Virus record (IMG/VR): IMGVR_UViG_3300049432_000105
Coordinates: 1 to 21,965 of that record
Direction: 5' to 3' (one strand)
From: a virus
Length of the DNA: 21,965 nucleotides
In this document: in pieces, positions 1 through 17,756 of the stretch
Layout: each line of letters begins with the position of its first letter
How positions within the stretch are numbered: the stretch's first letter is position 1
Position numbers and translations under genes: made by a program
Notes under the pieces: model-generated
Databases searched by the model: none
Told to the model about the DNA's origin: nothing
Seen by the model: the letters and a program-made list of their open reading frames with translations, nothing else

Positions 1-2
1 CC

Positions 3-581
3 TCAAATCCGGATTTTGCGCCGGCGATGATTACGCAGGGGCTCCACTTAAGAAAACAACGCGGGGAAAAAATCTACACCGGCGCTTACATGATCTCGGC
101 GCCTTCCGAAAAGGGCGCGGACAAGCAGGCCTATATCGCCGAGGTCGTCTGCGGCGAGCTATGGCGCCGGCGGGAGATTTTCGCCAAGCACTTCGCCGGC
201 ACGCCGACGCTGCAGCGGACGCATGAACTGATCACCCGCTCCAACGGCTGGGGCCCGTTCATGGCGTACCAGGCGGTCGTGGACATGCGCTACACGGCGC
301 TGCTCGACAGGGCCGACGATCTCGCGAGCTGGGCGGCGGCCGGGCCCGGCACCTTGCGCGGCCTGAATCGATTGCACGGCCGCGACAAGGATGCGGCGCT
401 GTCGCAGGGGCAGGCGCTGACCGAAATGCGCGCGATCTACCGCGTGGTGCAGCAAGAGACCAATGTCGCGATGGATTTTTCCGACGTTCCCAACATCCTG
501 TGCGAGACGGACAAGTATCTGAGGGAGCAGAGCGGCGAGGGCCATCCGCGCACCCGCTATGTCGCGGGCAGGGGTTTTTGA
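3..581 (+). CDS. 5-hmdU DNA kinase helical-domain-like protein, 5' end missing
   Basis: The frame is open to the left edge, so the gene probably starts outside the window; an internal ATG at 27 would give 184 aa. The visible part has the pattern I associate with the helical domain of phage 5-hydroxymethyluracil DNA kinases and the related alpha-glutamyl/putrescinyl-thymine pyrophosphorylases: KIYTGAYMIS, then GWGPFMAYQAVVDMRY, then AAGPGTLRGLNRLHGR, ending with DVPNILCETDKYLREQSGEG. That family, described computationally and tested in phages with hypermodified thymine, acts on modified pyrimidines in DNA and has a helix-hairpin-helix glycosylase-like fold. No P-loop kinase domain is visible; it could lie upstream or be absent. 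The next gene starts in a TGATG overlap. Family assignment is from remembered motifs, and the exact activity is not known. Confidence 0.65.
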   Translation, partial: SNPDFAPAMITQGLHLRKQRGEKIYTGAYMISAPSEKGADKQAYIAEVVCGELWRRREIFAKHFAGTPTLQRTHELITRSNGWGPFMAYQAVVDMRYTALLDRADDLASWAAAGPGTLRGLNRLHGRDKDAALSQGQALTEMRAIYRVVQQETNVAMDFSDVPNILCETDKYLREQSGEGHPRTRYVAGRGF

Positions 582-1102
582 TGGCCGCGCCGCTCCCGAC
601 ACACCCGACGCTGCCCGATTACGCCGACGTGGTGCGGATCTACCAGGGCTCGGATGGTGAAGCCACCAAGGCGCTGTATCGCGAGCTGGAACAGCTGGGC
701 CGGATCGGCGCCATCGCGGTCAATCTGTTTCGCGCCACCAAGTGCTCGGAGCGCGCCAAGATGTACCGCCGTGGACGCGGCTACAAGACCGCGGCCTATG
801 AGCGCAAGGACTGGAGCATCCGCAACCTGGCGACGGCGCTGCATGTGCAGCACGCGCAGGTGTTTTTCGATCTGAAATGGGGCTGGGCCGTCGACGATGG
901 CTTGCGCGAGCGCGGCGATCCGCACCATCACATCCTCTATCTCGAGCTGCCGACCGGGCAGGTCAGCTTTCACACCGGCGCGCGGGGTGAAGGCCCGGAC
1001 TACGCAAGAGAGTGGGACGGCGTGCGCGGCGCTGCGGCGGAGCGGGTCTGCCACTGGGTTGCAAGCCTGAGGCATCAGGAGGTCGCGCATGCCGACGCCT
1101 GA
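581..1102 (+). CDS. conserved phage hypothetical protein
   Basis: This 173-aa protein starts at the ATG that overlaps the stop of the modification-type gene (TGATG); an earlier in-frame ATG at 500 would overlap that gene by 80 bases and is less likely. The middle carries LFRATKCSERAKMYRR, and the C-terminal half carries KWGWAVDDGL, HHHILYLELPTGQVSFH and a GPDYAREWDGVRG segment. I recognise this last block as one that recurs in phage and plasmid hypothetical proteins, but I know of no function. There is no signal peptide or membrane segment, so it is probably cytoplasmic. Its coupling to the upstream gene suggests co-expression and perhaps a shared DNA-modification role, which is inference. 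Confidence 0.8.
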   Translation: MAAPLPTHPTLPDYADVVRIYQGSDGEATKALYRELEQLGRIGAIAVNLFRATKCSERAKMYRRGRGYKTAAYERKDWSIRNLATALHVQHAQVFFDLKWGWAVDDGLRERGDPHHHILYLELPTGQVSFHTGARGEGPDYAREWDGVRGAAAERVCHWVASLRHQEVAHADA

Positions 1103-1301
1103 CGCCCTGGCCATCGATCAGGCCGCGGTCGACGCGCGCAAGCCTACGGCACGCCCGCTGGTCGAGCCTGCGGAAGCCATCGCGATCGCGCTGTCCCTGG
1201 TGCGCTGGACTCCGGGCCGGCTGCACGCTCCGGATGATCGCGTCGTCAGCTTTGTCCTGAAAGCCATTAACGACGCCGGCTGGAAGTTCGAGCCGCGCTG
1301 A
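1089..1301 (+). CDS. small hypothetical protein
   Basis: This 70-aa protein begins at an ATG 14 bases before the end of the preceding gene. A purine-rich CAGGAGG at 1077-1083, inside the upstream gene, is a strong ribosome binding site about 5 bases ahead of this start. The N-terminal 30 residues are rich in Ala, Asp, Pro and Arg and look disordered. The rest ([20 protein letters not shown] to DAGWKFEPR) could form a small helical unit. I do not recognise a family. Close packing in the operon and the good binding site support it as a real gene. Confidence 0.7.
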
Positions 1302-1360
1302 GATGTCCCGTGTTGCGTTTGTTGCGCCCCTTAAAACTCAAAACCCTTCGGAGAAGCGCT

Positions 1361-1642
1361 GTGGATGCGCATGCCCAGACCTCTGCCGCCGCCCGCGAAG
1401 CGCCTTCAACCCGCTTTGCCAAGGATCAGCTGCGCTCGATCATCGAGCGGATCGAGCGGCTGGAGGAAGAGAAGAAATCCATCGCCGATGACATCCGCGA
1501 CGTCTACGCGGAAGCCAAGGGCAACGGTTTTGACGTAAAGGCGCTGCGCAGCATCGTGCGGCTGCGCAAGCAGGATGCCGGCCAGCGCGCCGAACAGGAA
1601 ACCATCCTGGAGACCTACATGCAGGCGCTGGGGATGCTGTGA
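1361..1642 (+). CDS. GapR-family DNA-binding protein (DUF2312)
   Basis: The 93-aa product has the GapR/DUF2312 pattern end to end: [20 protein letters not shown], then [20 protein letters not shown], then [10 protein letters not shown]. GapR proteins are small, alpha-helical, dimeric or tetrameric proteins almost confined to Alphaproteobacteria; in Caulobacter GapR binds overtwisted AT-rich DNA, affects replication and helps topoisomerases ahead of forks. The GTG at 1361 is chosen because GGAG at 1350-1353 sits 7 bases ahead and the resulting length matches the family. An upstream in-frame GTG at 1310 would add a basic 17-residue extension not typical of GapR. A phage copy near replication genes could help phage replication or shape DNA topology; that role is inference. 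Confidence 0.92.
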
Positions 1643-1917
1643 TGGGCGCGGGTCGCAAAATCACAGTTGAAATCGAGATCGGGAAACTCGTTCCCGTGAC
1701 ATCGAACGATGGCGGCTATTTGGGGCGATGCTGCTTGCTGTGTGGCGTCTCGGGCTGGGACGGCGGCAGCTCCATCGGATTCCGCGCCGATACGCCAGAG
1801 ACGGTCAACGGCAAGCGCCTGATTGGCATGCGACACGCAAAATCCTGCCAGCTCAATGAATTTATTGACGGGAACACTGGCCGCATCTTCGAGGAAGCAA
1901 TCGGGAGGAAACAATGA
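1642..1917 (+). CDS. small hypothetical protein with cysteine cluster
   Basis: The 91-aa protein starts at an ATG overlapping the gapR-like stop (TGATG); a GTG three bases earlier is also in frame. It has a basic start and an acidic beta-like stretch (KITVEIEIGKLVPV), then GRCCLLCGVSGW and a later HAKSCQ. The CxxC-type pair plus His and Cys could bind a metal, but spacing alone does not prove it. The gene looks less GC-rich than its neighbours, which fits an accessory phage gene that joined the operon separately. I do not recognise a family. The next gene overlaps its stop by four bases (ATGA). Confidence 0.7.
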   Translation: MGAGRKITVEIEIGKLVPVTSNDGGYLGRCCLLCGVSGWDGGSSIGFRADTPETVNGKRLIGMRHAKSCQLNEFIDGNTGRIFEEAIGRKQ

Positions 1918-2426
1918 CGACAACGAGCGAGCCTACACAAGCCGACTTCGTCAACGCGTGCCAGCTCGCTGCCGACCGGTTGTGGATGCACCGCAGGAAG
2001 CTGCGCCGCGCCGCGGTCAAGATCGGCTTTTGGCCGACCGGCATGGTGATCTCCGCCAACATCACCGCGCGGAACGATGACGAAATGGCAGCGGCCCTGC
2101 CGCCGCAGGTAATCCCGTGGGATCAGGTCGCGACGATATCCATCGAGGGGATCCTCGCTATCGTCGATCTGGTCTGTGACCCGCTCTATCCGGCGCTCGG
2201 CATATCGCGCGAGGAAAAAGCGCCGGTTGCGATGATCGCGCTTGGCCGCAAACCGGAGCAGGAAATCTGGATCGAAGGCCTGCCGGCCGAAGACATCGGC
2301 ATCCCCACGGTCGCACTGTCCGGCTACCTCGAAGGCTTGGGATACATCACGCCGGACCGCGCCGATGCAATCGCCGACGGGCTGCAACGCGCGGCGCGGC
2401 GGGCACGCGGCGAGGCTGCGGCATGA
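1914..2426 (+). CDS. hypothetical protein
   Basis: This 170-aa protein starts at ATG within an ATGA overlap, preceded by GGGAGGAA (1903-1910), a good ribosome binding site. The N-terminal third (DFVNACQLAADRLWMHRRKLRRAAVKIG) looks helical and basic. The centre is a mixed alpha/beta region (MVISANITARNDDEMAAALP), and the last 40 residues (VALSGYLEGLGYITPDRADA) look like a helix-turn-helix-sized helical bundle ending in an Arg/Ala tail. I do not recognise a family and do not assign a function. Coupling to the genes on both sides supports its reality. Confidence 0.75.
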   Translation: MTTTSEPTQADFVNACQLAADRLWMHRRKLRRAAVKIGFWPTGMVISANITARNDDEMAAALPPQVIPWDQVATISIEGILAIVDLVCDPLYPALGISREEKAPVAMIALGRKPEQEIWIEGLPAEDIGIPTVALSGYLEGLGYITPDRADAIADGLQRAARRARGEAAA

Positions 2427-2686
2427 ACCTGACCGACCGAACGCTCCACGTGGATGTCGGTGATGGCGCCTTCATGACGTTGCCGCGCCCGGATTGGCTC
2501 TGGCCGCTCATCCATACCCGACCCGAGCCTGATCGCGGCACGCACTGCGACGACCGGATGCTCGCGGCCGGCGTGCTGCAAAGCTATCTCTATCTCGTTC
2601 AGAGTTGCACCAAGGAAGAGGCATGGCGACGCATCAAGTTGATGCGCGCCGCTTTGGATGCAAACAGCAACGCGTGGGTGTCATGA
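2423..2686 (+). CDS. small hypothetical protein
   Basis: This is an 87-aa protein in an ATGA overlap with the preceding gene and another ATGA overlap with the helicase-like gene that follows. The first half (LTDRTLHVDVGDGAFMTLPRPDWLW) is probably beta-rich. The second half (MLAAGVLQSYLYLVQSCTKEEAWRRIKLMRAALDA) is probably two helices. No family is recognised. Continuous four-base overlaps over three genes suggest translational coupling. Confidence 0.72.
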   Translation: MNLTDRTLHVDVGDGAFMTLPRPDWLWPLIHTRPEPDRGTHCDDRMLAAGVLQSYLYLVQSCTKEEAWRRIKLMRAALDANSNAWVS

Positions 2687-3594
2687 ACGCCGCGCCTCCC
2701 ATCGACGGCGCAACCGACGACGACGCGCTGCTGCGTGCCGCCGCCGCGCTGGCGTGGCGCGACGATCATGCCGCGGTGTCGCTGCCGACCGTGCTGACGC
2801 GGCCGCCGCTGGAGGGCGCGGTCGGGATGCTGGATTATTCCGAGCCTGAGGATCCGAACTCGGCGGCGTGGCCGCGCTGGAACATCACCGGCTCGTCGCA
2901 CGCCATCATCATGGCGAAAAAACTGTTCGGCACCGATTCCATGGCCAGCGACGGCGGCGGCAAGTCGATCTCGTTCCCGGCCACGCTGGGCTCGTTCGAC
3001 GAGCTCCTGATGGAGGCGGAAGCGATCCGCCAGACCCGGCGCGCCACCGCGCTGGCAAAGCTGCCGGCGGTGATCGCGTTTTTGCGCGGCTTGATGGAGG
3101 CCGAGGAGCCGACGCTGTGCTTCCTGCACCATCACGCCGTCACCGACGGCATCCTCGAGGCCTTGGAAGAATTTCGTCCGGTCTGCATCACCGGCCGGCA
3201 GGACAAGTCGCAAAAGGACGAGGCGGTCACCGCGTTTTCGCGCGGCGATACCAATCTCTGCCTGATCTCGCTGCGCACCGCGACCGGGATCGACGGCCTG
3301 CAAGCGCGCGCCCGCGTCGTGGTGTTCGCCGAGCTCGACTGGTCGCCGGCGGTGCACCGCCAGGCGGAAGACCGCGCCCATCGCATGGGGCAGCGCGACA
3401 GCGTGCTGGCGTATTACTTGGTCACAGACCTCGGCACCGATCCGTTCGTGATGATGACGCTGAACCTGAAGGCCAGCCAGTTCACCGGGCTGATGCAGGA
3501 CCGCGGCGAGAGCGATGACGACCGCCGCGATGCCAAGGATGCTGCCAAACAGCACATGGAAGGCGTGCTTTCGATGCTGCGGGGCCGGAAATGA
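2683..3594 (+). CDS. SNF2-type helicase, C-terminal lobe only
   Basis: This 303-aa protein carries the C-terminal RecA-like lobe of superfamily 2 SNF2/Rad54 enzymes: PTLCFLHHHAVTDGILEAL (motif IV region), VCITGRQDKSQKDEAVTAF, then LCLISLRTATGIDGLQAR around residues 190-207 (motif V) and HRQAEDRAHRMGQ at 225-237 (motif VI with the arginine finger). The N-terminal lobe with Walker A and DExH motifs is absent here, and none of the five upstream genes supplies it. Residues 1-120 show no clear motif. The start is the ATG in an ATGA overlap; an in-frame ATG at 2605 lies inside the previous gene. Alone it should not hydrolyse ATP normally, so it may partner another protein or be a remnant that still has an open frame. 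Confidence 0.85.
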   Translation: MNAAPPIDGATDDDALLRAAAALAWRDDHAAVSLPTVLTRPPLEGAVGMLDYSEPEDPNSAAWPRWNITGSSHAIIMAKKLFGTDSMASDGGGKSISFPATLGSFDELLMEAEAIRQTRRATALAKLPAVIAFLRGLMEAEEPTLCFLHHHAVTDGILEALEEFRPVCITGRQDKSQKDEAVTAFSRGDTNLCLISLRTATGIDGLQARARVVVFAELDWSPAVHRQAEDRAHRMGQRDSVLAYYLVTDLGTDPFVMMTLNLKASQFTGLMQDRGESDDDRRDAKDAAKQHMEGVLSMLRGRK

Positions 3595-3743
3595 GCGCAG
3601 GCTTTTCCACAGTCGCATCGTGCCATGCCGGCGTCCCGTCGTCGCCTCGCGAGCGTGATTTTGCGCTGCGTTGTCCCCGTTATGCGAGTTATCCACAGGG
3701 CTTCGCCCTCTGGGCTACGCCCTGCAAGCAGGTGGTCTCTTGA
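3591..3743 (+). CDS. possible 50-aa ORF over the origin-like region
   Basis: An ATG in an ATGA overlap with the helicase-like gene opens a 50-codon frame that ends in the TGA overlapping the TTG start of the initiator gene. The peptide (MSAGFSTVASCHAG to TPCKQVVS) has no recognisable feature. The frame may only serve to carry ribosomes to the initiator start, or may be accidental; the same stretch holds DnaA boxes and hairpins. Low confidence as a protein. Confidence 0.3.
   Translation: MSAGFSTVASCHAGVPSSPRERDFALRCPRYASYPQGFALWATPCKQVVS
3603..3697 (+). promoter_or_regulatory. two DnaA boxes before the initiator gene
   Basis: TTATCCACA at 3689-3697 is an exact match to the strict bacterial DnaA box. 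TTTTCCACA at 3603-3611 fits the relaxed form TTWTNCACA. Both are on the + strand, 86 bases apart, in the only stretch of the left module without a convincing gene. They may bind host DnaA for origin opening or for control of the initiator gene. Confidence 0.55.
3698..3723 (+). repeat. tandem GGGCTWCGCCCT hairpin repeats
   Basis: GGGCTTCGCCCT (3698-3709) and GGGCTACGCCCT (3712-3723) are two 12-base units with a 14-base period. Each is an inverted repeat GGGC-3 nt-GCCC. They abut the DnaA box and end 16 bases before the TTG start, so they could be an autoregulatory operator, an origin iteron pair or an mRNA structure controlling initiation. Confidence 0.55.
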
Positions 3744-4984
3744 GCGGTCCGCGCCTCTCCATCATCCCGGCCGGAGCGGTCACCGACCGCTCGCTGGAGC
3801 CGCGCGACCTGCAGGTGCTGTGTCTGCTGGGCCGTCATACCGACAAGGCCGGCTGGTGCGTCCGCAGCCAGGTCAAGATGGCCGGCGAACTGGACTGCTC
3901 TCGCTCGTCGGTGCAGCGCTCGCTCGACCGGCTCTATGAGGCCGGCTGGGTTGAGAAAAAGCGCCGCGACATTGCCATGGGCGCGTCCGATGCAGGGCAG
4001 CCGTCGGCTTCCTATGCGTATCGCGTAGTGCTCGACCGGGATGATTTTGCCTTCGAAACCGCCATCCGTGGCGCCGAAGAGGAGACCGACGAGAGCTATG
4101 CAGAAACTGCATCTGAGGAGGGGGGGTGCCCACCTGTGGGCACCCCCTCCGGCACCAATTCCGGCACCAATTCCGACGCGCCGGCAGGGCCGGAAAAGGC
4201 GGCCGAGGGTGCCCACACAGACGGGCACCCGGGTGCCCAGCCATACGTGGGCACGGGTGCCCAGCCATACGTGGGCACCAAGAACGTCCCCTTAGAACGA
4301 TCCCACCTTGAACGTGAGAGAGATGCGCGCGCGCGGGATCGAAGAGCGAGATTTCTGGTTTCGTTCGAGGCGAGGTGGCCGACGGCGGCTGCCGACGACC
4401 GCCAGCGCACGGCTTACGCGGCAGGCGCCTTGAGCGAAGCGGAAGAGCAAGCGGCACTCGCGGGCATCGGACCGTTCCTCGAAAATCTCAAGCGGCTCAA
4501 GCGCAGCAATGTTCCGGCCGGCTGGAACTATCTCGAACAACGACGCTGGACGCTGCTGGAAGCGCAGAAAGCGGCCGGCGTTGCGGTCGCGGCGGTGTTC
4601 GCGCGCGACACGGTCGAAGCCAAAGCGCTGGCGGTGCTGCACGAGATCGCGGGCGCCGGCGATGGATTCCGGAAAATCTATCGCTCCCCCGATGGTTCGA
4701 TCAGTTACCGCCTGCCGATGACGCCGCAACTGATGGCGCTTGCGCAAGCGGCGCCGCAAACCGAATGGGTTGCGCTGAACCGCAACCAGGCCGGCGCCTG
4801 GGAAGGCCTGCTTCGCGACGCGGTCACGATCGTGATCCGAAAGCACCTCAAGGAAGGCGAGCGCGCGCCATGGCCATGGCCGCCATCGGCCGAGGGCAAG
4901 GTCTACAGCTCGGCGACCGGCCCGCCGGACACGCTGATGAGCGAACAGGACGAGGCGGATTTTGCCAACGAGGGAACGCGATGA
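3740..4984 (+). CDS. winged-helix replication-initiator-like protein
   Basis: A 414-aa protein. Residues about 15-75 (DLQVLCLLGRHTDKAGWCVRSQ, then CSRSSVQRSLDRLYEAGWVEKK) form a winged helix-turn-helix of the type in phage O-like initiators and RepA proteins. Residues about 100-190 are a low-complexity linker encoded by palindromic repeats (GTNSGTNS at 138-145, then GAQPYVGT twice at 165-180). The C-terminal half (about 195-414) is helical and probably binds replication partners. The TTG at 3740 is chosen over a GTG at 3671: it overlaps the preceding stop as TTGA and has AGGTGG at 3730-3735 ahead; a longer form would add 23 residues without a domain. Layout and position between helicase-like and late genes suggest initiation, but a transcriptional role is possible. 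Confidence 0.78.
   Translation: MSGPRLSIIPAGAVTDRSLEPRDLQVLCLLGRHTDKAGWCVRSQVKMAGELDCSRSSVQRSLDRLYEAGWVEKKRRDIAMGASDAGQPSASYAYRVVLDRDDFAFETAIRGAEEETDESYAETASEEGGCPPVGTPSGTNSGTNSDAPAGPEKAAEGAHTDGHPGAQPYVGTGAQPYVGTKNVPLERSHLERERDARARDRRARFLVSFEARWPTAAADDRQRTAYAAGALSEAEEQAALAGIGPFLENLKRLKRSNVPAGWNYLEQRRWTLLEAQKAAGVAVAAVFARDTVEAKALAVLHEIAGAGDGFRKIYRSPDGSISYRLPMTPQLMALAQAAPQTEWVALNRNQAGAWEGLLRDAVTIVIRKHLKEGERAPWPWPPSAEGKVYSSATGPPDTLMSEQDEADFANEGTR
4122..4147 (+). repeat. perfect 12-base inverted repeat
   Basis: GGGGGTGCCCAC (4122-4133) and its exact complement GTGGGCACCCCC (4136-4147) are separated only by CT. It shares the core GGTGCCCA with the repeats 60-130 bases downstream, within the same linker of the initiator gene. 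Confidence 0.85.
4151..4174 (+). repeat. 12-base exact tandem repeat (GGCACCAATTCC x2)
   Basis: GGCACCAATTCC occurs at 4151-4162 and again at 4163-4174, encoding GTNS twice. The AATT steps are among the few AT-rich patches here, between the first GTGCCCAC palindrome and the main repeat cluster. Confidence 0.8.
4207..4278 (+). repeat. three 24-base palindromic units, iteron-like (candidate origin)
   Basis: Three units of 24 bases follow each other. Each starts GGGTGCCCA and ends in GGGCAC: 4207-4230, 4231-4254 and 4255-4278. The last two are identical; the first has the same outer half-sites but a different centre (ACACAGAC). Each unit is an inverted repeat GTGCCC...GGGCAC with an 8-10 base spacer, so with 4122-4147 there are eight half-sites. 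The 24-base period keeps the reading frame and gives GAHTDGHP, GAQPYVGT, GAQPYVGT. A related pair of AGAACG sites follows at 4281-4299. By analogy with lambda ori within gene O, this is a candidate binding array for the initiator. Confidence 0.75.
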
Positions 4985-5655
4985 AAGCAAACCTGAAAAA
5001 GGGCCAAGTGGTCGACTATGTCGATGCTCCGAAACAAAGGCCGCCGCGGTCAGCGGACGCATTGCGCATCTGGCATCTGGTGAACGTCAGCGACGGGCTG
5101 GATCAAGATGGCGTGGATTTTCTTGACCGGCTGCGGATTAAATTATACCAGCCGTTGATGCGCATCATGAAGCCGGTGCCGCGCGACCGGCTGTCACATT
5201 CGCAGCGCAAGTCGGCGCTCAGGCCGATGCGGGAAAAGATCGAACCGTTCTTTCCAGGCTACGCCTTTGCCGACTATTCCGAAGCCGGCGACCGGTGGCG
5301 TGAAATCTTCAAGATGAAACATATCCGCGGCCTGTCCTGCAACAACAACCAGCCGGTGCAGGTGCCGTGGAAGATGATCGCCGAAATTCAGGGCCTCGAG
5401 GTGGACGGTGCGATCCCGGGCGTGACAAAACTGTTCGAGATGCCGTTCATGCTCGGCGAACGGGTGCGCGTCGCCAAAGGCGCGTTCGCGTCGTTTCCCG
5501 GCACCATCGAGCAGTTACCCACATTCAATGCGGAAGCGATGGGCAATCTGTCGCTGGAAGAGCTTGACGACTCAGTACGCGTGCATCTATTGGTCGACAT
5601 CTTCGGACGTTCGACGCCAGTGGCATTGTCGATTTCGGATATCGAAAAGTTCTAG
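4981..5655 (+). CDS. NusG/RfaH-like transcription elongation factor
   Basis: This 224-aa protein starts at an ATGA overlap with the initiator gene. Residues about 28-130 resemble an NGN domain: RIWHLVNVSDGLDQDGVDFL, an aromatic/proline-rich segment IKLYQPLMRIMKPVPRDRL, and EPFFPGYAFADY, the classic FPGYvF signature, followed by WREIFKMKHIRGL. Residues about 158-180 (FMLGERVRVAKGAFASFPG) match the KOW motif of the C-terminal domain, and the tail ends DIFGRSTPVALSISDIEKF. NGN domains bind the RNA polymerase clamp and suppress pausing, and specialised paralogues such as RfaH or LoaP act on chosen operons. It is the last gene before the late operon, with terminator-like structures between them, so a role in late-gene antitermination is likely but inferred. 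Confidence 0.85.
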   Translation: MKANLKKGQVVDYVDAPKQRPPRSADALRIWHLVNVSDGLDQDGVDFLDRLRIKLYQPLMRIMKPVPRDRLSHSQRKSALRPMREKIEPFFPGYAFADYSEAGDRWREIFKMKHIRGLSCNNNQPVQVPWKMIAEIQGLEVDGAIPGVTKLFEMPFMLGERVRVAKGAFASFPGTIEQLPTFNAEAMGNLSLEELDDSVRVHLLVDIFGRSTPVALSISDIEKF

Positions 5656-5731
5656 CAGCCATCGTCGAGCCATCCCGCAGCCATCCCATAACCAGCCGGG
5701 CTGCCGCCGCATTGGAATAGAATTTTTGAAG

Positions 5732-5766
5732 CGCCGTTCGCAGCAATGCGGGCGGCGTTTTCGTTT
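5732..5766 (+). terminator. rho-independent terminator with GCAA tetraloop
   Basis: An 11-pair stem (5732-5742 with 5747-5757, including two G-U pairs) closes on the tetraloop GCAA at 5743-5746 and is followed by TTTTCGTTT at 5758-5766. It lies 77 bases after the NusG-like gene and would end the early operon transcript. Confidence 0.75.
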
Positions 5767-5776
5767 GCATAGGGTG

Positions 5777-5795
5777 CGCGGTAGCGCTCGCGCTA
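5777..5795 (+). promoter_or_regulatory. ops-like element overlapping a TAGCGC/GCGCTA palindrome
   Basis: GCGGTAGCG at 5778-5786 equals nine contiguous bases of the E. coli ops element that recruits RfaH to paused polymerase; the flanking first G and the T two bases later do not match. The same bases form a small hairpin, TAGCGC-TC-GCGCTA (5782-5795). Position between a NusG-like gene and the late operon makes it notable; a chance match is possible in GC-rich DNA. Confidence 0.35.
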
Positions 5796-5831
5796 TCGAA
5801 GCCCTCGTTGGGCGTTTCCTCCCTAAGACTT

Positions 5832-5869
5832 CGGGGCCGTTCGTTGGTGCCCTCCCGCGAACGGCCCCG
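5832..5869 (+). terminator. long leader hairpin, possible attenuator
   Basis: CGGGGCCGTTCG (5832-5843) and its perfect complement CGAACGGCCCCG (5858-5869) enclose a 14-base loop. Only a short CTTT follows, so it is not a standard intrinsic terminator. It ends 17 bases before the first late-module start and could act as attenuator, pause site or transcript-stabilising 5' end. Confidence 0.5.
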
Positions 5870-5886
5870 CTTTAGGATTTTCAAAA

Positions 5887-6075
5887 ATGTGCCGATGCGC
5901 CGAACGCAAGGATGCCCTGCAGCGCGCCGCCTCCGCGTTCGGGCGCGGCGAGCGAAGTTCGGCTGCGCAAGACGTGCGCTTCGTCGCGCGCAGTCTGGTC
6001 GAGGATGCGGAATTCGCGGCGCGGGCGCGGCTGTCGCTGCTGCGCGCCACGCTGGGGCGCGGGATCCGGCGATGA
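5887..6075 (+). CDS. small hypothetical protein (first late-module gene)
   Basis: A 62-aa Ala/Arg-rich protein beginning MCRCAERKDALQRAASAFGRG, with helices in the second half (VRFVARSLVEDAEFAARARLSLLRATLG). The N-terminal CxC is the only notable motif. Its stop overlaps the start of the GPZ-like gene (ATGATG). No clear ribosome binding site precedes the ATG: the sequence is AGGATTTTCAAAA, with AGGA about 10 bases upstream. I know no function. It may be a small phage structural or regulatory protein. Confidence 0.6.
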   Translation: MCRCAERKDALQRAASAFGRGERSSAAQDVRFVARSLVEDAEFAARARLSLLRATLGRGIRR

Positions 6076-6647
6076 TGTTTGGCCGCTCGCTCAACATCGA
6101 GCAGATCGAGCGGCTGGTCGACCTGCGCCGCGCGCTGCCGAAGGTGGCGATGCGGGCGCTCAACCGCACCGGCGCCAAGGCGGGCACGCAGGTGGTGCGG
6201 GCGCTGACGGATCAGACCGGGCTCGCGCGCAAGACCATCAAGCGCGCGGTGAAGTCGTATCGCGCCAGCGAGCGCAATCTTTCGTTTGCCTTGAAGACGC
6301 GCGGCGGCAACATCAACCTGCGCTTCTTCAAGGCGCGCGAGACGCGGGCCGGCGTCAGCGCCGCGCCGCTCGGCAAGCGGACCGTGGTGCCGCACAGCTT
6401 CATGAAGGCCGGGCGGTTTCCCAAGCGCGTGCGCTTCGACAGCCGCGGCAAGGGCAAGGGCATGCACGGCAACGTGTTCGTGCGCCGGGGCAAAGGCCGG
6501 TTGCCGATCGAGGGCGGCCGTTCCGGCGTCTACATCCCGACCGAGATGCTGCAGGGCCGCACGCTCGCCGCGTTCGACACGATGGTGGCGACCGACCTGC
6601 CGGTCCAGGTCGAGCGCGCCATCAACGACGCCCTTCGCGGCCACTGA
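6072..6647 (+). CDS. prophage minor tail protein Z-like (GPZ family)
   Basis: A 191-aa basic protein. It has the layout of the lambda gpZ/prophage minor tail protein Z family: an N-terminal helix (VDLRRALPKVAMRALNRTGA), the segment VRALTDQTGLARKTIKRAV, a beta region with LSFALKTRGGNINLRFF and AGVSAAPLGKR, then HSFMKAGRF...VFVRRGKGRLPIE and a final helix. Family members help complete the tail and join it to the head. ATG at 6072 or 6075 is possible; 6072 overlaps the upstream stop. Its place ahead of the terminase genes, far from the other tail genes, is unlike lambda, where Z follows FII. Confidence 0.72.
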   Translation: MMFGRSLNIEQIERLVDLRRALPKVAMRALNRTGAKAGTQVVRALTDQTGLARKTIKRAVKSYRASERNLSFALKTRGGNINLRFFKARETRAGVSAAPLGKRTVVPHSFMKAGRFPKRVRFDSRGKGKGMHGNVFVRRGKGRLPIEGGRSGVYIPTEMLQGRTLAAFDTMVATDLPVQVERAINDALRGH

Positions 6648-6809
6648 TTGTTGTTGTGCAGCCACACCCCCCCCCTTTAGGGACCGTGTTTTTTGATCGT
6701 CACCTATACGGGCATAAATGCTCGCGGCATTTTCCTAGTTGATCGGCTGGAAAGCGGTACACGCAAACACGTGTTCCTACACGTGAGTTTTGCACGGATC
6801 GGCACGTGA
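6648..6809 (+). other. intergenic region before terminase, candidate packaging start
   Basis: A 162-base gap in an otherwise packed cluster. It contains nine C (6667-6675), a short dyad CCCTTTAGGG (6673-6682), T6 at 6689-6694, and three CACGTG sites nearer the terminase start. A weak sigma70-like pair (TTGATC then TAAATG, 16-base gap) can be read at about 6694-6721 but is poor. Phages with this terminase class usually have cos just upstream of the small-subunit gene, so this is the natural place for it; no cut site can be fixed by eye. Confidence 0.4.
6766..6808 (+). promoter_or_regulatory. three CACGTG sites before small terminase
   Basis: CACGTG occurs at 6768-6773 (inside the 10-base palindrome AACACGTGTT, 6766-6775), 6780-6785 and 6803-6808, at spacings of 12 and 23 bases, about one and two helical turns. 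The last ends one base before the ATG. They could bind the small terminase subunit at cos, or a repressor. Another CACGTG lies at 16122-16127 before the sheath gene. Confidence 0.45.
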
Positions 6810-7424
6810 ATGGATGACGGCGAGTGGATATCGATCACGGATGCGGCGGAGCGGTTGGGTAAGGCCGGAGATTTTGTCGATCGGTCGACGCTGTCGCGCT
6901 ATCTCAAGCAGCACTCCGAGGCGTTGCCGTTGCGTCGCGAAGGCAAGTCGAACCTGGTTGAATTCGGCGCGCTGGCCGCACATCGCGCCGAAAACGTGCG
7001 GCTCCGCAAGCCGGCCCCGTTAACGACGCCGCCTAGCACGGCAATCGGTGCTGAGAGCCGGTTCAAGGGCTCGCAATCCGACGGGGCGGCGCGTAAGGCG
7101 CAGGCCGATGCCGAGATGCGGGAGATGGACCTCGCCGAGCGGCGTGGCGAACTGACGCTCGTCGTCGAGGTTGACCAGAGCGCGCGCGACGCGATTGCGC
7201 TGATGCTGAGCGCGTTCGATCGGGCCATCGACACCGAGGCTGCATCGGCTTCGGTGAAGTACGGCTGGGATGAGCGCATCGCGCGTCTGGTGCTCAAAGG
7301 CTTTGCGCGCAAGGGGACCGATATCTTTCATCAGGAGATGCTGAAGCAGCTCGATGCGATCGACCGTGCCGACATGGCCGCGGGGCATGGTGATGACGAT
7401 GCTGTCGAAGCGGCGCTGCAGTGA
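6810..7424 (+). CDS. small terminase subunit
   Basis: A 204-aa protein placed directly before the large terminase, which starts in a GTGA overlap. Residues about 6-60 (WISITDAAERLGKAGDFVDRS, STLSRYLKQHSEALPLRREG) form a winged helix-turn-helix like lambda gpNu1, which binds cosB. A variable linker follows, then helices (AQADAEMREMDLAERRGELTLVVEVDQSARDA) typical of terminase small-subunit assembly regions. It recognises phage DNA and loads the large subunit for packaging. The start lacks a strong ribosome binding site (GGATCGGCACGTGA precedes), so expression may depend on upstream translation or on the CACGTG region. The call rests on domain layout and gene order. Confidence 0.8.
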   Translation: MDDGEWISITDAAERLGKAGDFVDRSTLSRYLKQHSEALPLRREGKSNLVEFGALAAHRAENVRLRKPAPLTTPPSTAIGAESRFKGSQSDGAARKAQADAEMREMDLAERRGELTLVVEVDQSARDAIALMLSAFDRAIDTEAASASVKYGWDERIARLVLKGFARKGTDIFHQEMLKQLDAIDRADMAAGHGDDDAVEAALQ

Positions 7425-9526
7425 GCTTCCATGATCCTCGCCTGCGGTTTCCGTTACTGCCGTCCGGCGCCAAACTTCTGTTCAGCGGTCTCGCCGCGGC
7501 GACACGGCCGACCGAGGATCTAACGATCAGCGAATGGTCGGACCGCTACCGCATGGTGTCGGCGGAATCCGGCTCCCCCTGGCCGGGACCATTTCGCACC
7601 GACCGCTTCCCGCCGCTGCGCGAGCCGCAGGATTGCCTGCATCCGGATCACCCGGCGCGTCGGGTGACGGCGCGATGGGCCGCGCAGCTCGGCAAGTCGA
7701 CCGCTATCGAAAACTGGTTCGGCTTCATCGTCGATCGCTCGCCCGGCACCATGATGATCGTGCTGCCGACGCTGGAGGAGGCAACGAAGTTCAACCGGGT
7801 CAAACTTGACCCGACGATCGACGCCTCGACTGCTTGGAAACATAAGGTAGCGCCGGTCAACAGTCGTGATGAAAAGGCCTCGACCACTGCCTACAAGCGG
7901 TACGCTGGCGGTTTCTGTGTCATCGTCAATGCGGGCTCTTCCAAGGGCCTGCAGATGGTCTCGATCAAGAACCTCGCGATGGACGAGGTCACCGGCTATC
8001 CGCGTGACGTCGATGGTCGGGGCAGCCCGCGCGATCAGGCACGCGCGCGGCAGAAGGCTTACGGTGATCTAGCCAAGGAATGGCAAGGCTCCACGCCGGG
8101 GCTTGCTGGCGAATGTGCGATCACCGCGGATTTTGAGAACGGCGATCAGCGCCACCTCTACGTGCCGTGTCCACATTGTCGCGGCTACCAGCTGCTGCTC
8201 TTCGAGCAGCTACGGTCAGCCGACGAAAAGTTGCCGGCGCATATGCGCTGCCTGTCATGCGATGGCGTCATTCTCGACGGCCACAAGCATGAGATGTTGG
8301 CCGACAGCATATGGATTGCCCGGCGTGTCAGGGACGACGCAGAGCCGGTGCCGGACGTTATCAAGCCGGTCGATCTGGATCGCTGGCGTTGTTCTCCATG
8401 TGAAGGCCGCTGCAGCGAATGGCAGCCAAGCTATCATCTGTGGGCGGCTTACGCGCCGCGCGAGCGGTTCGGCGATATCTGGCAGCGCTGGGAGGATGCG
8501 CAAGGCGACACCACCAAGCTGCGGGTGTTCTTCCAGCAGGATTTAGCTGAGCCCTATGATGCCGGCGGCGTAGCGATCGAATGGGAGAAGGTCACCGAGG
8601 CGGTTCGCGCGCAGCCCTATCCGCGCGGCAAGGTTCCGTCCGAAGCGGGGTTGATCGTTTCGGCCGCGGACGTCCAGGGTTACGCCATCAAGTGGGTGGT
8701 TTATGCGATTGGGCCTCGTGGCCAGCGCTGGCTCATTGACCGCGAAGTGTTCGAGGGTGCCCCGGATCAGGTCGATGATCCCTGGATCGCGTTGGCGGAT
8801 GCGCTCGGCCGCAAGTACGAGACGGCGGGCGGAGGCCAGGTAGGCATCGATCTGAGTGGCGTCGATTCCGGCTTTGCGACGGATCGGGTCTATCGCTTCT
8901 GCGCCAAACGGCCGAACGTCTACGCGCTCGATGGGCGGCACTCACCAGGTCTGCCGTGGCTCGGCACGCCGGTGAAGAAAGATATCAGGGATCAGCGCAA
9001 GCGCATCATCGCCAAGGTGCTGCTGTACCCCGTTGGGAACTACGACGTCAAAACAGAAGTCGTTGCCGGTCTCGCCAACATGCTCGAGGGACCGGACAAA
9101 GCCGGACGCTGGCCACGCAACACGCTGCATTTGACGCCTGATCTCTGCGACGAAGAATTCGCAAAGGAGATCACCGCCGAGCGTCTGGTCGATCCCGATG
9201 AGGAGGCGCGCGCGACGATCAGCCGGCGCGCCCGCCGGCTGATCCGGCCAAATGCCCCGCGCGAATGGAAGCGCATCGTCGGCCGGCCGAACGACTGGTT
9301 CGACGCGACGGTCTACGCATATGCATTGGGCTGGCATCTCGAACATAAACGCCGCCTCAACGAGGCGCGCTGGGCGGACCTGCTGATGACCGTGCACGGT
9401 CAGGACAACGAGCCTGATCTTTTCGAAGCGGCGGCAAGCCCGTTCGAACGGAAGTCGCCGATCCCTGCCGCCGAGCGCGAACAGCGCAAGGCCGCACGTC
9501 GCGACAAATGGAAAAAGCGCAAGTGA
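7421..9526 (+). CDS. large terminase subunit (lambda gpA family)
   Basis: This 701-aa protein is the packaging motor and nuclease. The ATPase part shows SEWSDRYRMVSAESGSPWPGP, a Walker A-type RWAAQLGKST (about residues 84-93) and Walker B LAMDEV (about 184-189). Two cysteine pairs, CPHC (250-253) and CLSC (277-280), suggest a zinc knuckle. The nuclease part contains SAADVQGYAIKWVVYAIG near residue 416, GIDLSGVDSGFATD near 477 and GRPNDWFDATVYAYALGWH near 625, giving the acidic residues expected in the RNase H-like fold. Length matches the GpA family (PF05876). It starts at GTG in a GTGA overlap with the small subunit. The C-terminal tail is highly basic (KAARRDKWKKRK). Confidence 0.96.
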   Translation: MSFHDPRLRFPLLPSGAKLLFSGLAAATRPTEDLTISEWSDRYRMVSAESGSPWPGPFRTDRFPPLREPQDCLHPDHPARRVTARWAAQLGKSTAIENWFGFIVDRSPGTMMIVLPTLEEATKFNRVKLDPTIDASTAWKHKVAPVNSRDEKASTTAYKRYAGGFCVIVNAGSSKGLQMVSIKNLAMDEVTGYPRDVDGRGSPRDQARARQKAYGDLAKEWQGSTPGLAGECAITADFENGDQRHLYVPCPHCRGYQLLLFEQLRSADEKLPAHMRCLSCDGVILDGHKHEMLADSIWIARRVRDDAEPVPDVIKPVDLDRWRCSPCEGRCSEWQPSYHLWAAYAPRERFGDIWQRWEDAQGDTTKLRVFFQQDLAEPYDAGGVAIEWEKVTEAVRAQPYPRGKVPSEAGLIVSAADVQGYAIKWVVYAIGPRGQRWLIDREVFEGAPDQVDDPWIALADALGRKYETAGGGQVGIDLSGVDSGFATDRVYRFCAKRPNVYALDGRHSPGLPWLGTPVKKDIRDQRKRIIAKVLLYPVGNYDVKTEVVAGLANMLEGPDKAGRWPRNTLHLTPDLCDEEFAKEITAERLVDPDEEARATISRRARRLIRPNAPREWKRIVGRPNDWFDATVYAYALGWHLEHKRRLNEARWADLLMTVHGQDNEPDLFEAAASPFERKSPIPAAEREQRKAARRDKWKKRK

Positions 9527-11163
9527 CACTGCTGGATCGTATGATGGGACGTTCTGCCAAGCCGGCCGCGGATTTGCGGCCGCCGAAGGCACGGGCCGGC
9601 TATCTGCGCGATACAAAGTCACGCGTGATGTCGATGCGGTCGTCGGCGTTGCGCGAACATCGCGATGACGTCCGGATTGCATGGCGCCGCGCGGCAGGCT
9701 TGGCCATGGACCTGATCCAGAACTCGGGGAGGCTCCGCGGTGCGGCCGACCAGGTGATTGCCGACACGGTCGGTGTCGAACTGGTATTGAACCCGCAGCC
9801 GGATCTCGCGGGCCTCGGCTATAGCGCCGACGAAGCCGCCGCGTTGGTGCGCACCATCAAACAGCGATGGAAGCGATACGCCTGGTCGCCGCGGGAATGC
9901 GACTTGCGCGGCAAGTTCAACCTGCCGCAGATGGTCGATATCGCGTTGCGATGGGACATGGTCTACGGCGAAGCGCTCGGCGTGATGAGCTACATGAGCC
10001 CGGCGCAGCGCCGGCAGTACGGCATCACGTCAGGCACCAAGATGTGCATGGTGACGCCGACCAGGCTTGTACAGGACACCAACGAGATCGAGGGCCTGTT
10101 TCAGGGCGTGATCCACGATCCCAACGGCCGCCCCGTAGCCTACCGGATCGAGGAGAAAGAAACCGGGATCAGGGTCAAGCGCGACTACAAGGCTTACGAC
10201 CGCGCCGGCCGCCAGCTCGTGACCCACGTATTCGATCCGCTTGACGCCGGCGATGTCCGCGGCATCAGCCGGATTGCTTCCGCGTTTCGCCAGCACATCC
10301 AGCATGAGATTCTGGTCGACACCACGATCCAGACCGCGATTTTGCAGACGGTGTTTGCCGCGGTGCTTACCAGCAAGACGCCCTCAAAGGAGGCTTTCGA
10401 GGCGATCGAGGCGATGAGCTCGGATGACCCGTTGCCGGCCGGCAAGTCATCCTACGGCGACGAGTATCGCGACTATTTTCTCGCCGCGCTCGATCGTGCG
10501 GCGGAAGGCGAGATTGCGATCAGCGATGCGCCGCAGGTGTCGCACCTGGCGCCGGATGAGGATCTGAAACTGCTCACGACCAAGACGCCGGGACCACAGT
10601 TTCTGCCGGTCAGCCGTGAGCTGTCGCGCGATATGGCGCGAGCGATCGGAATCACCTTCGGCGGGCTGACGATGAACCATGAGAATGCGACCTATTCGTC
10701 GACCCGCATGGAGAATTCCTCGATCTGGCCGGTCGTCACGCGCCGCCGCGAGCGCATCGCGGCGCCGCCGTGTCAGGCGGTGTACGAGAATTGGCTCGAC
10801 GAGGAAGTCGGCGAGGGCCGGATTGCGATCAAGGGAGGCTATGACGCCTTTGACGCGAACCGCGAGCGGTTGACGTGGGCGCTGTGGCAGGGGCCGGCGA
10901 AGCCGAGCGCCGACGATTTCAAGAGCGCGAAAGGATCGAGCGAGCGGCTTTACAACGGGACCACGACGCTGGCGGACGAGTGCGCGGAAAACGGCAAGGA
11001 TCCGGATGAGGTGTTCGAGACGCGGGTGCGCGAGCACAAACGCTATACGGACGCCGGGCTGCCCTCGCCGTTCGTGCGCAATCCGAACGCCAAGCCGGAT
11101 GATGCTGCTGCTGTCGCCGAAGAGCCGCCGCCGCGGAATCGAACGCAGCGCGAGGATGCCTGA
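9523..11163 (+). CDS. portal protein (lambda gpB family)
   Basis: A 546-aa portal protein, forming the dodecameric ring at the capsid vertex through which DNA is packaged. The sequence has the pattern of PF05136: IQNSGRLRGAADQVIADTVG, CDLRGKFNLPQMVDIALRWD, a GEALGVM segment, KMCMVTPTRLVQ, RGISRIASAFRQHIQHEILV and FGGLTMNHENATYSSTRMEN. GTG at 9523 forms the GTGA overlap seen throughout the cluster, with GGAAAAAG upstream; an ATG at 9508 would add five residues and is the alternative. The C-terminus (KPDDAAAVAEEPPPRNRTQR) is disordered. The next gene starts in a TGATG overlap. Confidence 0.93.
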   Translation: MTLLDRMMGRSAKPAADLRPPKARAGYLRDTKSRVMSMRSSALREHRDDVRIAWRRAAGLAMDLIQNSGRLRGAADQVIADTVGVELVLNPQPDLAGLGYSADEAAALVRTIKQRWKRYAWSPRECDLRGKFNLPQMVDIALRWDMVYGEALGVMSYMSPAQRRQYGITSGTKMCMVTPTRLVQDTNEIEGLFQGVIHDPNGRPVAYRIEEKETGIRVKRDYKAYDRAGRQLVTHVFDPLDAGDVRGISRIASAFRQHIQHEILVDTTIQTAILQTVFAAVLTSKTPSKEAFEAIEAMSSDDPLPAGKSSYGDEYRDYFLAALDRAAEGEIAISDAPQVSHLAPDEDLKLLTTKTPGPQFLPVSRELSRDMARAIGITFGGLTMNHENATYSSTRMENSSIWPVVTRRRERIAAPPCQAVYENWLDEEVGEGRIAIKGGYDAFDANRERLTWALWQGPAKPSADDFKSAKGSSERLYNGTTTLADECAENGKDPDEVFETRVREHKRYTDAGLPSPFVRNPNAKPDDAAAVAEEPPPRNRTQREDA

Positions 11164-11435
11164 TGCCGACGATGATCGAGATCGACGGCATCGTCATCGA
11201 CATGGACGATCCATGCGCGGTCGTCGGTGCCTTGCGCGCGGCCGAGTTGAAGATAACGATCAGCGGCGGCGTGGTGATGACCCGCTTCAGTGAGCACAAT
11301 GAGGTCCGATGGGGACGGGCACATCTCGATGCATTGGCTGATCTGATCGCGGGGTATGAGCGGCTGTGCGAACGGAAATCCGGGCGGCGGTCTCGTTTCG
11401 CCAAGCGCATGCGTTTCGTCGGGGAAAGGTGCTAG
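11163..11435 (+). CDS. gpW-like head-tail joining protein
   Basis: A 90-aa protein. Residues about 18-65 (AVVGALRAAELKITISGGVV, then a charged beta hairpin and HLDALADLIAGYERLCERK) follow the helix-hairpin-helix pattern of lambda gpW: a first helix, a beta hairpin with SGG, and a second helix. gpW caps packaged heads so that tails can join. The N-terminal 15 residues (MPTMIEIDGIVIDMDDP) are extra compared with lambda gpW, and the tail is basic. In lambda W lies before the portal gene; here it lies after. The assignment rests on a short pattern and position, so it is moderate. Confidence 0.5.
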   Translation: MPTMIEIDGIVIDMDDPCAVVGALRAAELKITISGGVVMTRFSEHNEVRWGRAHLDALADLIAGYERLCERKSGRRSRFAKRMRFVGERC

Positions 11436-11437
11436 GG

Positions 11438-12358
11438 ATGTCGCTTGCCCACAGCCGACTGTGCAGCATGCTGTTCGAACAACCGCTGTTGTACCATCCG
11501 CGCAAGGCGGAGACGGTGGTTCGCATGCTCGGGCCGCGCCTGACCGGCCACTCCATCACCGTCTTGAACGGCGAGGGCGGTGCCGACCATTTGGCCTTTG
11601 CCGGCGGTCGCGCCTCGGCCGGCGTGATCGGCGACCGCATGGGCCGGGCCTACGATAGCGCCGGTGTTGCACCTTTCGATATCGTCGAGGGGGTCGCGAT
11701 CGTCGCCGTTGAGGGTACGCTCGTGCAGAAGGGCGCGTGGATCGGAAGTGAATCCGGCGAGACGTCGTATCAGGGTCTGCAGACGCAAATCGCCCGCGCA
11801 CATCGTCCCGATATCAAGGGCGCGGTCGTCGAGGTCGACTCCTTCGGCGGTCTGGTCAACGGCGCGTTCGAGACCGCGGCGGCGCTGAACAGTCTCTCGA
11901 AGGCCAAGCCGACCATCGCTATTCTTACGGATTTTGCCTATTCCGCGGCCTATCTGATCGCGAGCCAGGCGCGGCAAATCGTCATGCCGGAATTCGGAGG
12001 CGCCGCGAACATTGGTGTGGTGATGTTGCACGCAGATTATAGCGGCAGCCTTCAGCAGGAAGGCATCAAGGTAACCATCATCAAGTCCGGTGCTCACAAG
12101 ACGGATGGAAATCCCTACGAGGCGCTGCCGGAAGAATTGCTCGCACGCTGGCAGGTGCAAGTGGATACGATCCGTGACCGTTTTTGCGGCGTGGTTGGGC
12201 AGGGGCGCGGCAAGCGCATGACCAAGGCCCGTGCGCTGAAGACCGAGGCGCAGGATTTTGGAGCTGCCGAGGCCCTCGAGCTCGGCCTGGTCGACGCTGT
12301 CGGCGACGGGCAGGAGGCGTTCAGCGCCTTCATCAAGGAAGTCAACCGGAGATCCTGA
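11438..12358 (+). CDS. S49-family head maturation protease
   Basis: This 306-aa protein resembles the protease part of lambda gpC and the SppA/S49 family. VEGVAIVAVEGTLVQKG opens the fold, and VVEVDSFGGLVNGAFETAA follows. The nucleophile is Ser169 in DFAYSAAYLIAS, and the general base is probably Lys221 in KSGAHKTDGNPY (Lys216 is the alternative). It cuts scaffold and capsid proteins during head maturation. ATG at 11438 is chosen: it follows the previous stop by two bases and has AAAGG about 10 bases upstream; earlier in-frame starts lie inside the gpW-like gene. Unlike lambda C, the scaffold portion is a separate gene downstream. Confidence 0.93.
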   Translation: MSLAHSRLCSMLFEQPLLYHPRKAETVVRMLGPRLTGHSITVLNGEGGADHLAFAGGRASAGVIGDRMGRAYDSAGVAPFDIVEGVAIVAVEGTLVQKGAWIGSESGETSYQGLQTQIARAHRPDIKGAVVEVDSFGGLVNGAFETAAALNSLSKAKPTIAILTDFAYSAAYLIASQARQIVMPEFGGAANIGVVMLHADYSGSLQQEGIKVTIIKSGAHKTDGNPYEALPEELLARWQVQVDTIRDRFCGVVGQGRGKRMTKARALKTEAQDFGAAEALELGLVDAVGDGQEAFSAFIKEVNRRS

Positions 12359-12360
12359 CG

Positions 12361-12879: not shown

Positions 12880-12891
12880 GGAGGCCGCAAC

Positions 12892-13572: not shown

Positions 13573-13586
13573 GGAGGGCGCAAGCA

Positions 13587-14615: not shown

Positions 14616-14636
14616 GGTAGTTTTCGTTTTTGGTAC

Positions 14637-14664
14637 AGAGCCTGCGCCAATTGGCGCAGGCTCT
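14637..14664 (+). repeat. 28-base perfect palindrome after capsid gene
   Basis: AGAGCCTGCGCC (14637-14648), AATT, then the exact complement GGCGCAGGCTCT (14653-14664). No T-run follows in either direction; on the + strand a TTTTCGTTTTT lies before it. It probably protects or partly terminates the capsid transcript so that downstream genes are made at lower levels. Confidence 0.8.
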
Positions 14665-14688
14665 CGACAATCATGGAGAGCGAGTTGA

Positions 14689-15084: not shown

Positions 15085-15085
15085 A

Positions 15086-15856: not shown

Positions 15857-15873
15857 CCAGGAGAGATCATCAG

Positions 15874-16116: not shown

Positions 16117-16184
16117 CGATACACGTGGTGGCTGATCCCGCCTCTTAAAACAAATCCCGACTCGCCAAAAAAAGGATTGATCCG

Positions 16185-17684: not shown

Positions 17685-17696
17685 GATGAAATGATT

Positions 17697-17713: not shown

Positions 17714-17756
17714 GGCTCTGCCTCTCCCAATTTTCTAAACGCAACAGGAGTCCTTC

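Follow-up and report, generated by a model that had tools for sequence, protein, structure and literature searches.

The IMG/VR virus record IMGVR_UViG_3300049432_000105 (21,965 bases, analysed whole and called the window hereafter) carries, between its early and late genes, a gene for a NusG-like protein directly followed by a leader whose parts recur in the same order beside highly diverged NusG-like genes of other viruses (Table 1). This conserved order of NusG gene, terminators, hairpin and small RNA (sRNA) at the head of the late genes suggests that viruses of soil bacteria related to Bradyrhizobium possess an unrecognised route to late-gene switch-on. We lean, on balance, towards a phage late-gene switch composed of the NusG paralogue and the late leader, which would be analogous to the pR'-6S-tR' region of lambda. 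The first-pass annotation of the window had already pointed to a late-gene antitermination switch, and its placement of a NusG paralogue beside a conserved leader ahead of the late operon stands, with antiterminator action remaining the conjectural half of the claim. The observation itself is confirmed as real and is stronger than a reading of the window sequence by itself could tell.

Linkage of the leader to NusG-like genes and late operons

Our main sample comprises 119 virus records picked by the suhB core pattern alone from among the matches listed; they are not dereplicated, and L010 and L058 come from the same records as L003 and L002, respectively. Records with at least 700 bases upstream, or in which NusG was found, are termed assessable (106 of the 119; 13 do not qualify). 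At E 0.001, the Pfam NusG family (PF02357) is detected in 48 of the 119 listed records, two of them below the family cut-off and 32 near the leader (one 40-record batch of this search also contained L004), and a NusG profile of our own adds L022, L067, L094 and L122, for 36 near-leader NusG proteins in all. The 32 near domains end 311-969 bases upstream, on the same strand. Among the assessable records, NusG lies just upstream in 30/30 of those with a terminator followed by TAGG versus 6/76 of those without (Fisher p 8e-21, on records that are not dereplicated); L009 and L063 also carry terminator and TAGG, with too little upstream sequence to be assessed. The remaining 16 of the 48 NusG-bearing records have their NusG gene far away, and a pattern check finds no such leader beside these genes, save a chance-like AGGTGTGCG in L137.

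Two further searches started from other parts of the unit. The motif TAGGGTGTGCGGTAGCG occurs in 13 stretches of viral contigs, and a suhB-type core follows every one of them: 12 match GGGCGTTTCCTCC exactly and L181 differs by one change. NusG is found upstream in 12 of the 13, with L178 not assessable. A scan of genome_contigs with the motif gave six matches, of which L184, L185, L186 and L188, lacking both suhB core and NusG, were taken as chance. A protein-led search of viral contigs, run with three profiles built from leader-linked proteins and so not fully independent, yielded 27 loci with a core within 1.2 kb in 24; of its 12 previously unmet records, nine have the core, L259 has a diverged form, and the core-less pair consists of L247 (830 bases available) and L260, probably a remnant. 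Whether records are taken by RNA, by motif or by protein, these comparisons support the association of a phage NusG paralogue with a conserved leader at the late-operon head.

The open reading frames (ORFs) downstream of NusG-linked leaders encode HNH, small and large terminase, portal and neck proteins. A large terminase lies downstream in 20 of 22 loci (15 phrog_9, four GpA/phrog_15 and one Terminase_3, taken as disjoint), the 22 being drawn from 33 loci after exclusion of nine with less than 2.5 kb downstream and of L023 and L076, which have no large ORF in the available DNA.

Leader anatomy and the covarying hairpin

As established by eye and by script alignment, the shared leader runs from the NusG stop codon through one to three intrinsic terminators, the CATAGGKTGT element, a hairpin mostly starting GCGG, usually a single T, a GCCC-loop-GGGC hairpin, GTTTCCTCCC, GACTT and a terminator hairpin to the late genes. 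The intrinsic terminator with a GCAA tetraloop that had been noted after the window gene is borne out as T1, whose stem-loop folds as RNA at -24.8 kcal/mol (z -4.6); a simple terminator scan, which over positions 1-20000 of the window returned 16 terminator-like sites where 15.9 were expected, failed to list it. Among the 29 anchored leaders, the window included, 28 have a terminator stem ending 6-19 nt before TAGG (shuffled rate 7%), and the 29th, L090, has by eye a terminator with one mismatch; several leaders appear, again by eye, to carry two or three terminators in tandem. TAGGK follows 8 of the 11 strong terminators in leaders versus one of the 24 found outside leaders at these loci, and 25 of the 32 NusG leaders ascertained through suhB have [TA]AGG[GT]T no more than 75 nt from the core.

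Immediately 3' of this element, the window hairpin forms eight pairs (5779-5786/5791-5798) beneath a CUCG loop, its outermost pair, G5778-A5799, being broken, and the stretch 5770-5885 folds at -57.1 (z -3.9). Loops in relatives vary in length and sequence, that of L010, for one, being UUCG. Hairpin counts omit anchor-less leaders and exact duplicates; the 44-leader set includes leaders chosen by motif, and the 35-leader set, chosen by suhB core or protein, is the cleaner. In these 35 distinct leaders, 256 of 280 cells pair, against 230 with shuffled partners (standard deviation 3.4, maximum 245 in 5000 shuffles, a procedure that leaves the relatedness of the leaders in place), and sliding the partner by -1, 1, 2 or 3 lowers pairing from 91% in register to 28, 24, 46 and 61%, respectively. 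Several pair types are in use at hairpin positions 4-8; constancy at AGG and the following GC is partly by construction, as the anchor pattern demands them. By sequence comparison, then, the leader hairpin covaries. A DNA operator in place of the hairpin is disfavoured by the compensatory changes and the variable loop length.

These data also bear on the ops-like element singled out in the first-pass annotation. The nine-base match, GCGGTAGCG, is indeed present on the palindrome (5778-5786, plus strand) and is identical to ops over its nine bases. Two further copies lie on the minus strand of the window (7544 and 20023), three in total against 0.33 expected, so that the 9-mer by itself is weak. 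When leaders beside related NusG-like genes are compared, the element does prove conserved, but the conserved part is TAGGKTGTGCGG together with the covarying hairpin, not ops: the exact 9-mer is kept in 11/32 relatives ascertained through suhB and in 1/9 new ones ascertained through the protein, and we rejected ops as the main conserved signal. Recognition of GCGGTAGCG by the paralogue in the non-template strand, as RfaH recognises ops, could draw on the nine-base identity, on GCGGTAGCGC being the commonest hairpin arm and on RfaH at ops being the top structural match of the protein; we nonetheless judge it distinctly improbable, given the scarcity of the exact 9-mer, variant arms compensated on the opposite side, widely variable loop length, and structural matches to NusG within one Z unit of RfaH combined with a sequence match that is better to NusG than to RfaH.

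Directly after the NusG stop codon, the window carries imperfect direct repeats whose period of 11 is equalled by 0.5% of 200 shuffles, 6 of 34 tested leaders reaching 1% or less. Arrays of 11-12-nt repeats occupy the same place in L010, L045, L064, L074 and L077; the unit varies among phages (AGCCACC, GATCACGA, GCGTCACG) while the period is kept. By eye, the arrays accompany NusG proteins with a VP(R/K)xxLSxxQR-like insertion, found in the window, L004, L010, L058, L045, L064, L074, L077, L088 and L097. We take the array to be rut-like, and such arrays could be Rho-loading sites or protein-binding arrays.

The NusG-like protein

The protein that closes the early region, first annotated as NGN-KOW, is upheld as NusG-like by Pfam and PHROG, and its KOW part is seen in the predicted fold. 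The ATG of its gene overlaps the stop codon of an upstream replication-initiator-like gene (3671-4984). The product passes PF02357 narrowly (23.1 bits, cut-off 22.2), and its PHROG match, phrog_6386 (E 2.7e-11), is annotated 'transcription antiterminator'; NusG is the sole Pfam family it matches, with no match to Q families or to Pfam KOW. All 31 aligned NusG-like proteins match PF02357 at E 0.01 or better, and when a profile built from them is used, Escherichia coli NusG is retrieved at E 1.4e-30, the match to RfaH having an E value of about 1e-18.

The AlphaFold model of the window protein (pLDDT, the predicted local distance difference test score, 84) shows an NGN and a beta-barrel KOW fold. 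Its best structural match is RfaH at ops (8phk; Z 10.3, root-mean-square deviation (rmsd) 7.5, 153 residues aligned), tied with NusG (1m1g; Z 9.4, rmsd 7.3, 150 aligned), and the predicted barrel matches the NusG C-terminal domain 2jvv at Z 8.6 (rmsd 1.6 over 56 residues, 45% identity). The C-terminal domain is modelled as beta strands, versus the autoinhibited all-alpha domain of RfaH, in a single model that leaves room for a second fold.

The 34 leader-adjacent NusG-like proteins have a median pairwise identity of 25%, and several appear to lack the KOW domain; sequence comparison thus indicates that a single leader architecture has been kept next to paralogues that differ greatly, and that it does not reflect mere kinship. 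A tblastn search of INPHARED gave two remote matches at about 20% identity, and a scan of viral contigs with profile A1 returned the same three loci and nothing further. BFVD already contains phage proteins named NusG or RfaH, matched with low TM-scores; the existence of NusG-like proteins in phages is therefore no novelty in itself.

A suhB/mmgR-type RNA ends the leader

The hairpin with 12-base arms that had been noted further downstream is real (5832-5843/5858-5869) but is in fact the 3' terminator arm of a suhB/mmgR RNA (RF00519, alpha-r8), to which the preceding 38 nt also belong. Upstream of these arms, the RNA comprises a short hairpin (5801-5804/5810-5813) and the conserved GUUUCCUCCC (5814-5823), and a U-poor tail follows. 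RF00519 scores above its threshold of 41 bits in all of the first four loci (window 48.6, L004 62.9, L003 46.8, L002 43.1), lying 3' of the NusG-like gene in the three closest relatives as it does in the window; the other leaders were matched to suhB by core pattern only. A weakening of the suhB terminator in NusG leaders was considered and is kept only as a hint: runs of at least five T occur in 6/34 NusG leaders versus 29/70 other copies (Fisher p 0.026, an exploratory and weak contrast), and the tail-score difference between NusG leaders and other suhB copies has p 0.20.

Phage suhB cores also occur in other settings. Among the matches listed, NusG is missing from the immediate upstream region in 70 of the 106 assessable phage suhB records, and such cores sit at mixed positions, for example in L070 and L112, a spread for which the literature searched, as far as its available text goes, gave no description. 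By eye, the solo copy L070 has TTGACA-16-TATGGT just before the RNA. Of the 87 other suhB loci, 47 were tested on the downstream side and 49 on the upstream side, and the largest neighbours are mixed, including helicase, methylase, tail and endolysin genes; this set includes leader-bearing records (downstream: L009, L022, L063, L067, L084, L094 and L122), from which its three phrog_9 terminase matches may stem.

Bradyrhizobium genomes and named phages

A search of 146 Bradyrhizobium genomes finds 11 copies of the full leader pattern, spread over nine genomes, and no copy of the reversed pattern. NusG lies upstream of five copies (L194, L195, L198, L200 and L202); none was found in at least 7 kb upstream of L196, L197, L199 and L201, in 3 kb for L203 or in 1.5 kb for L204. 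None of these six NusG-free copies has the terminator followed by TAGG, and across the 11 copies NusG accompanies 4/4 with that feature versus 1/7 without. The NusG-free copies, together with L237 (pUSDA76 15723-15790), take the form TAGGKTRTGCGG-hairpin-suhB, and by eye a TTGA(G/A)C stretch lies upstream of each except L196; two are placed on pUSDA76 by their coordinates, one of them adjoining an ISRj1 transposase gene on the conjugative plasmid.

Starting from the protein, the core is present at 7 of the 11 best-scoring Bradyrhizobium NusG loci with DNA available. Of the other four, L212 keeps only the suhB terminator and an HNH gene and looks like a leader deletion, and at L208, L209 and L213 the leader seems to have been lost or degraded. 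The core is present at one of the next 14 NusG loci (L216-L229) and at none of the six that their score alone marks as housekeeping NusG.

Two named Bradyrhizobium phages carry the leader, ppBeUSDA76-1 (OP596613.1; 68 nt at 100% to the composite query) and ppBdUSDA122-1 (OP596612.1; 79%), and both have HNH, terminase and portal genes downstream. The NusG-like gene of ppBeUSDA76-1, WAX24340.1 (L235 7998-8675, that is, OP596613.1 15032-15709), scores 115.7 bits with our profile and is misannotated as 'ABC transporter substrate-binding protein', an example of how such genes are overlooked in records; that of ppBdUSDA122-1, WAX24288.1, annotated 'hypothetical protein', scores 175.7 bits. The host given in the ppBeUSDA76-1 record is Bradyrhizobium elkanii USDA 76, a strain included in a study of spontaneously produced phages (PMC10127595), in whose accessible text a term search returned nothing for NusG, antitermination or transcription.

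The solo copies invite the alternative that the leader is nothing more than an autonomous gene for an alpha-r8 sRNA, lodged between the early and late operons, whose product would target host or phage mRNA in trans, with the NusG paralogue working elsewhere or globally. It would accommodate the RF00519 scores of the first four loci, the phage suhB records and Bradyrhizobium copies without NusG, and the promoter-like stretch before L070. We give it little credence, as it leaves unexplained both the 30/30 linkage of terminator and TAGG to NusG and the constant place of the leader before terminase genes.

A model for late-gene switching

In the switch that we favour, early transcription would stop at the one to three terminators after the NusG-like gene, and a separate late transcript would start at or near CATAGGKTGT; in the USDA 76 leader its 5' end would be expected at CATAGGGTGT. 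The late transcript would open with the conserved hairpin and the suhB/alpha-r8-type RNA and, without the phage protein, would halt at the suhB terminator, so that a short leader RNA results. After its synthesis, the NusG paralogue may join RNA polymerase at the hairpin, presented either as RNA or as exposed non-template strand, and the modified polymerase could then pass the suhB terminator and transcribe the terminase, head and tail genes.

A strong late promoter after 5869 would have spoken for another kind of control, and our scan of the window finds no promoter-like plus-strand site between 5869 and 9131. Nor is a strong late promoter supported at the leader itself: scores of 9 or more occur in 5/70 solo suhB copies and 0/33 copies near NusG, neither group exceeding shuffles. 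With no late promoter, processive read-through from the early operon becomes a rival, in which polymerase that comes from the early promoter and is modified by the NusG paralogue passes both T1 and the suhB terminator; the leader would here act as a series of gates, with the hairpin as a place of renewed loading. The lack of a sigma70-like promoter near TAGGKT would fit such a scheme, as would the close spacing of terminator and TAGG in nearly all anchored leaders and the tandem terminators seen by eye; the conserved hairpin, however, lies 3' of T1, too late to help polymerase past it, and we consider this rival unlikely, if less so than the two discussed above.

Several observations weigh against the switch built on a separate late transcript. 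Sigma70-type consensus scoring near the leader gives nothing above shuffles in either the NusG-linked or the solo group, so the late start is a guess. The tail of the suhB terminator is U-poor, 7 of 54 leaders lack the anchor, and Pfam KOW is matched in 6 of 31 proteins, several of the rest apparently having no KOW domain. The link between NusG and leader is not absolute, because 6 of the 11 Bradyrhizobium TAGGKT-hairpin-suhB copies have no NusG nearby: hairpin and suhB RNA can stand without NusG, and what is missing there is the upstream terminator. Conversely, 4 of the 11 high-scoring NusG loci have no core.

Should the phage use its NusG paralogue as late regulator, the role of the family would be extended, and a testable late switch would be at hand in phages of nitrogen-fixing soil bacteria. 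The highly diverged proteins beside one leader form a natural series useful for the question of how NusG paralogues choose their targets, and the leader gives the suhB/alpha-r8 RNA family a phage setting.

Other features of the window

The coordinates of the leader and its neighbours are collected in Table 1. The product of the first late ORF has no Pfam or PHROG match; by eye, similar small Cys-rich ORFs (MxCxCxER-like) start the late operon in L003, L004, L045, L069 and L076, and other relatives have an HNH gene in that slot. At 27-581 the window encodes a fragment matching PF18723, the 5-hmdU DNA kinase helical domain (E 2.3e-24), which hints at modified thymidine in the phage DNA.

Table 1. 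Leader elements and adjoining genes in the window
Feature	Position	Strand	Remarks
NusG-like gene (NGN + KOW)	4981-5655	+	Last gene of the early operon
Imperfect direct repeats of about 11 nt	5655-5697	+	AGCCATCCC type; directly after the NusG stop; in the NusG clade of the window
Intrinsic terminator T1	5728-5765 (stem-loop 5728-5761)	+	15-pair stem, GCAA loop, TTTTCGTTT
CATAGGKTGT element	5768-5777	+	CATAGGGTGC in the window; candidate promoter -10 or loading/pause signal
Leader hairpin	5778-5799	+	5' arm contains the ops-like GCGGTAGCG
suhB/mmgR (RF00519, alpha-r8) type RNA	5794-5882	+	48.6 bits; gathering threshold (GA) 41
First late ORF	5887-6075	+	Small Cys/Arg-rich protein (MCRCAERK...)
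Late genes	6072-11163	+	
Minor tail Z/Neck1	6072-6647	+	
Terminase small	6810-7424	+	
Terminase large GpA	7421-9526	+	
Portal	9508-11163	+	

Comparison with known systems

The late region of lambda consists of the gene for the regulator Q, the pR' leader with its 6S RNA and the tR' terminator, followed by the terminase genes. The window resembles it in anatomy, with a regulator gene immediately before a late leader, a terminator-type hairpin and then terminase and head genes, and, on our proposal, also in a short terminated leader RNA and in read-through into terminase and head genes. It differs in that the regulator belongs to the NusG family and not to Q, the leader RNA to the suhB/mmgR family, and the late promoter is a candidate only. 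A bolder reading, which we hold tentatively and with less confidence than the switch itself, is that of a third late-control route besides Q and late sigma factors or polymerases, in which very diverse NusG paralogues would all read one conserved, covarying hairpin. The host-type alpha-r8 sRNA to which this hairpin is fused would serve both as the terminated leader and, possibly, as an RNA acting in trans, and read-through of its terminator would move the phage from sRNA production to virion production. In the open-licence literature searched, as far as its available text goes, we found no description of a NusG-leader-suhB unit or of suhB/alpha-r8 RNA in phages; the accessible part of PMC3091675 merely lists a suhB RNA in a genome table, and the NusG paralogue targets named in the available sections of two reviews are capsule, toxin, antibiotic and conjugation operons (PMC6391919, PMC7819879).

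Known suhB/mmgR RNAs share the core hairpin, GUUUCCUCCC and terminator with the leader but are autonomous, whereas the RNA described here carries an attached 5' hairpin and sits in the position of a late leader; in the available text of PMC7143759, PMC8401924 and PMC12559287, mmgR is a 77-nt rhizobial sRNA of the alpha-r8 family that is autonomous and depends on Hfq, and no phage location is mentioned. GafZ, in the gene transfer agent cluster of Caulobacter, offers a likeness in the proposed antitermination control of a phage-like late cluster in an alphaproteobacterium; according to the accessible portion of PMC11150451, it works with host NusG, is thought to bind between -35 and -10, and is not called a NusG paralogue.

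RfaH is a parallel as a specialised NusG paralogue whose leader element shares GCGGTAGCG with some of our members, with the differences that here the arm is not conserved in sequence, the gene lies beside its presumed target and the KOW domain is predicted as a beta-barrel. The best biochemical parallel is LoaP of Bacillus velezensis (dfn and mln operons), likewise a NusG paralogue with a small 5' leader hairpin followed by an intrinsic terminator, which, as described in the available text of PMC12691694, needs the leader RNA hairpin and reads through the terminator in vitro. LoaP, however, is a host gene acting on antibiotic operons through a hairpin with a UNCG tetraloop, whereas the window hairpin has a CUCG loop, its relatives share no fixed loop, and the presumed target is the late operon of a phage.

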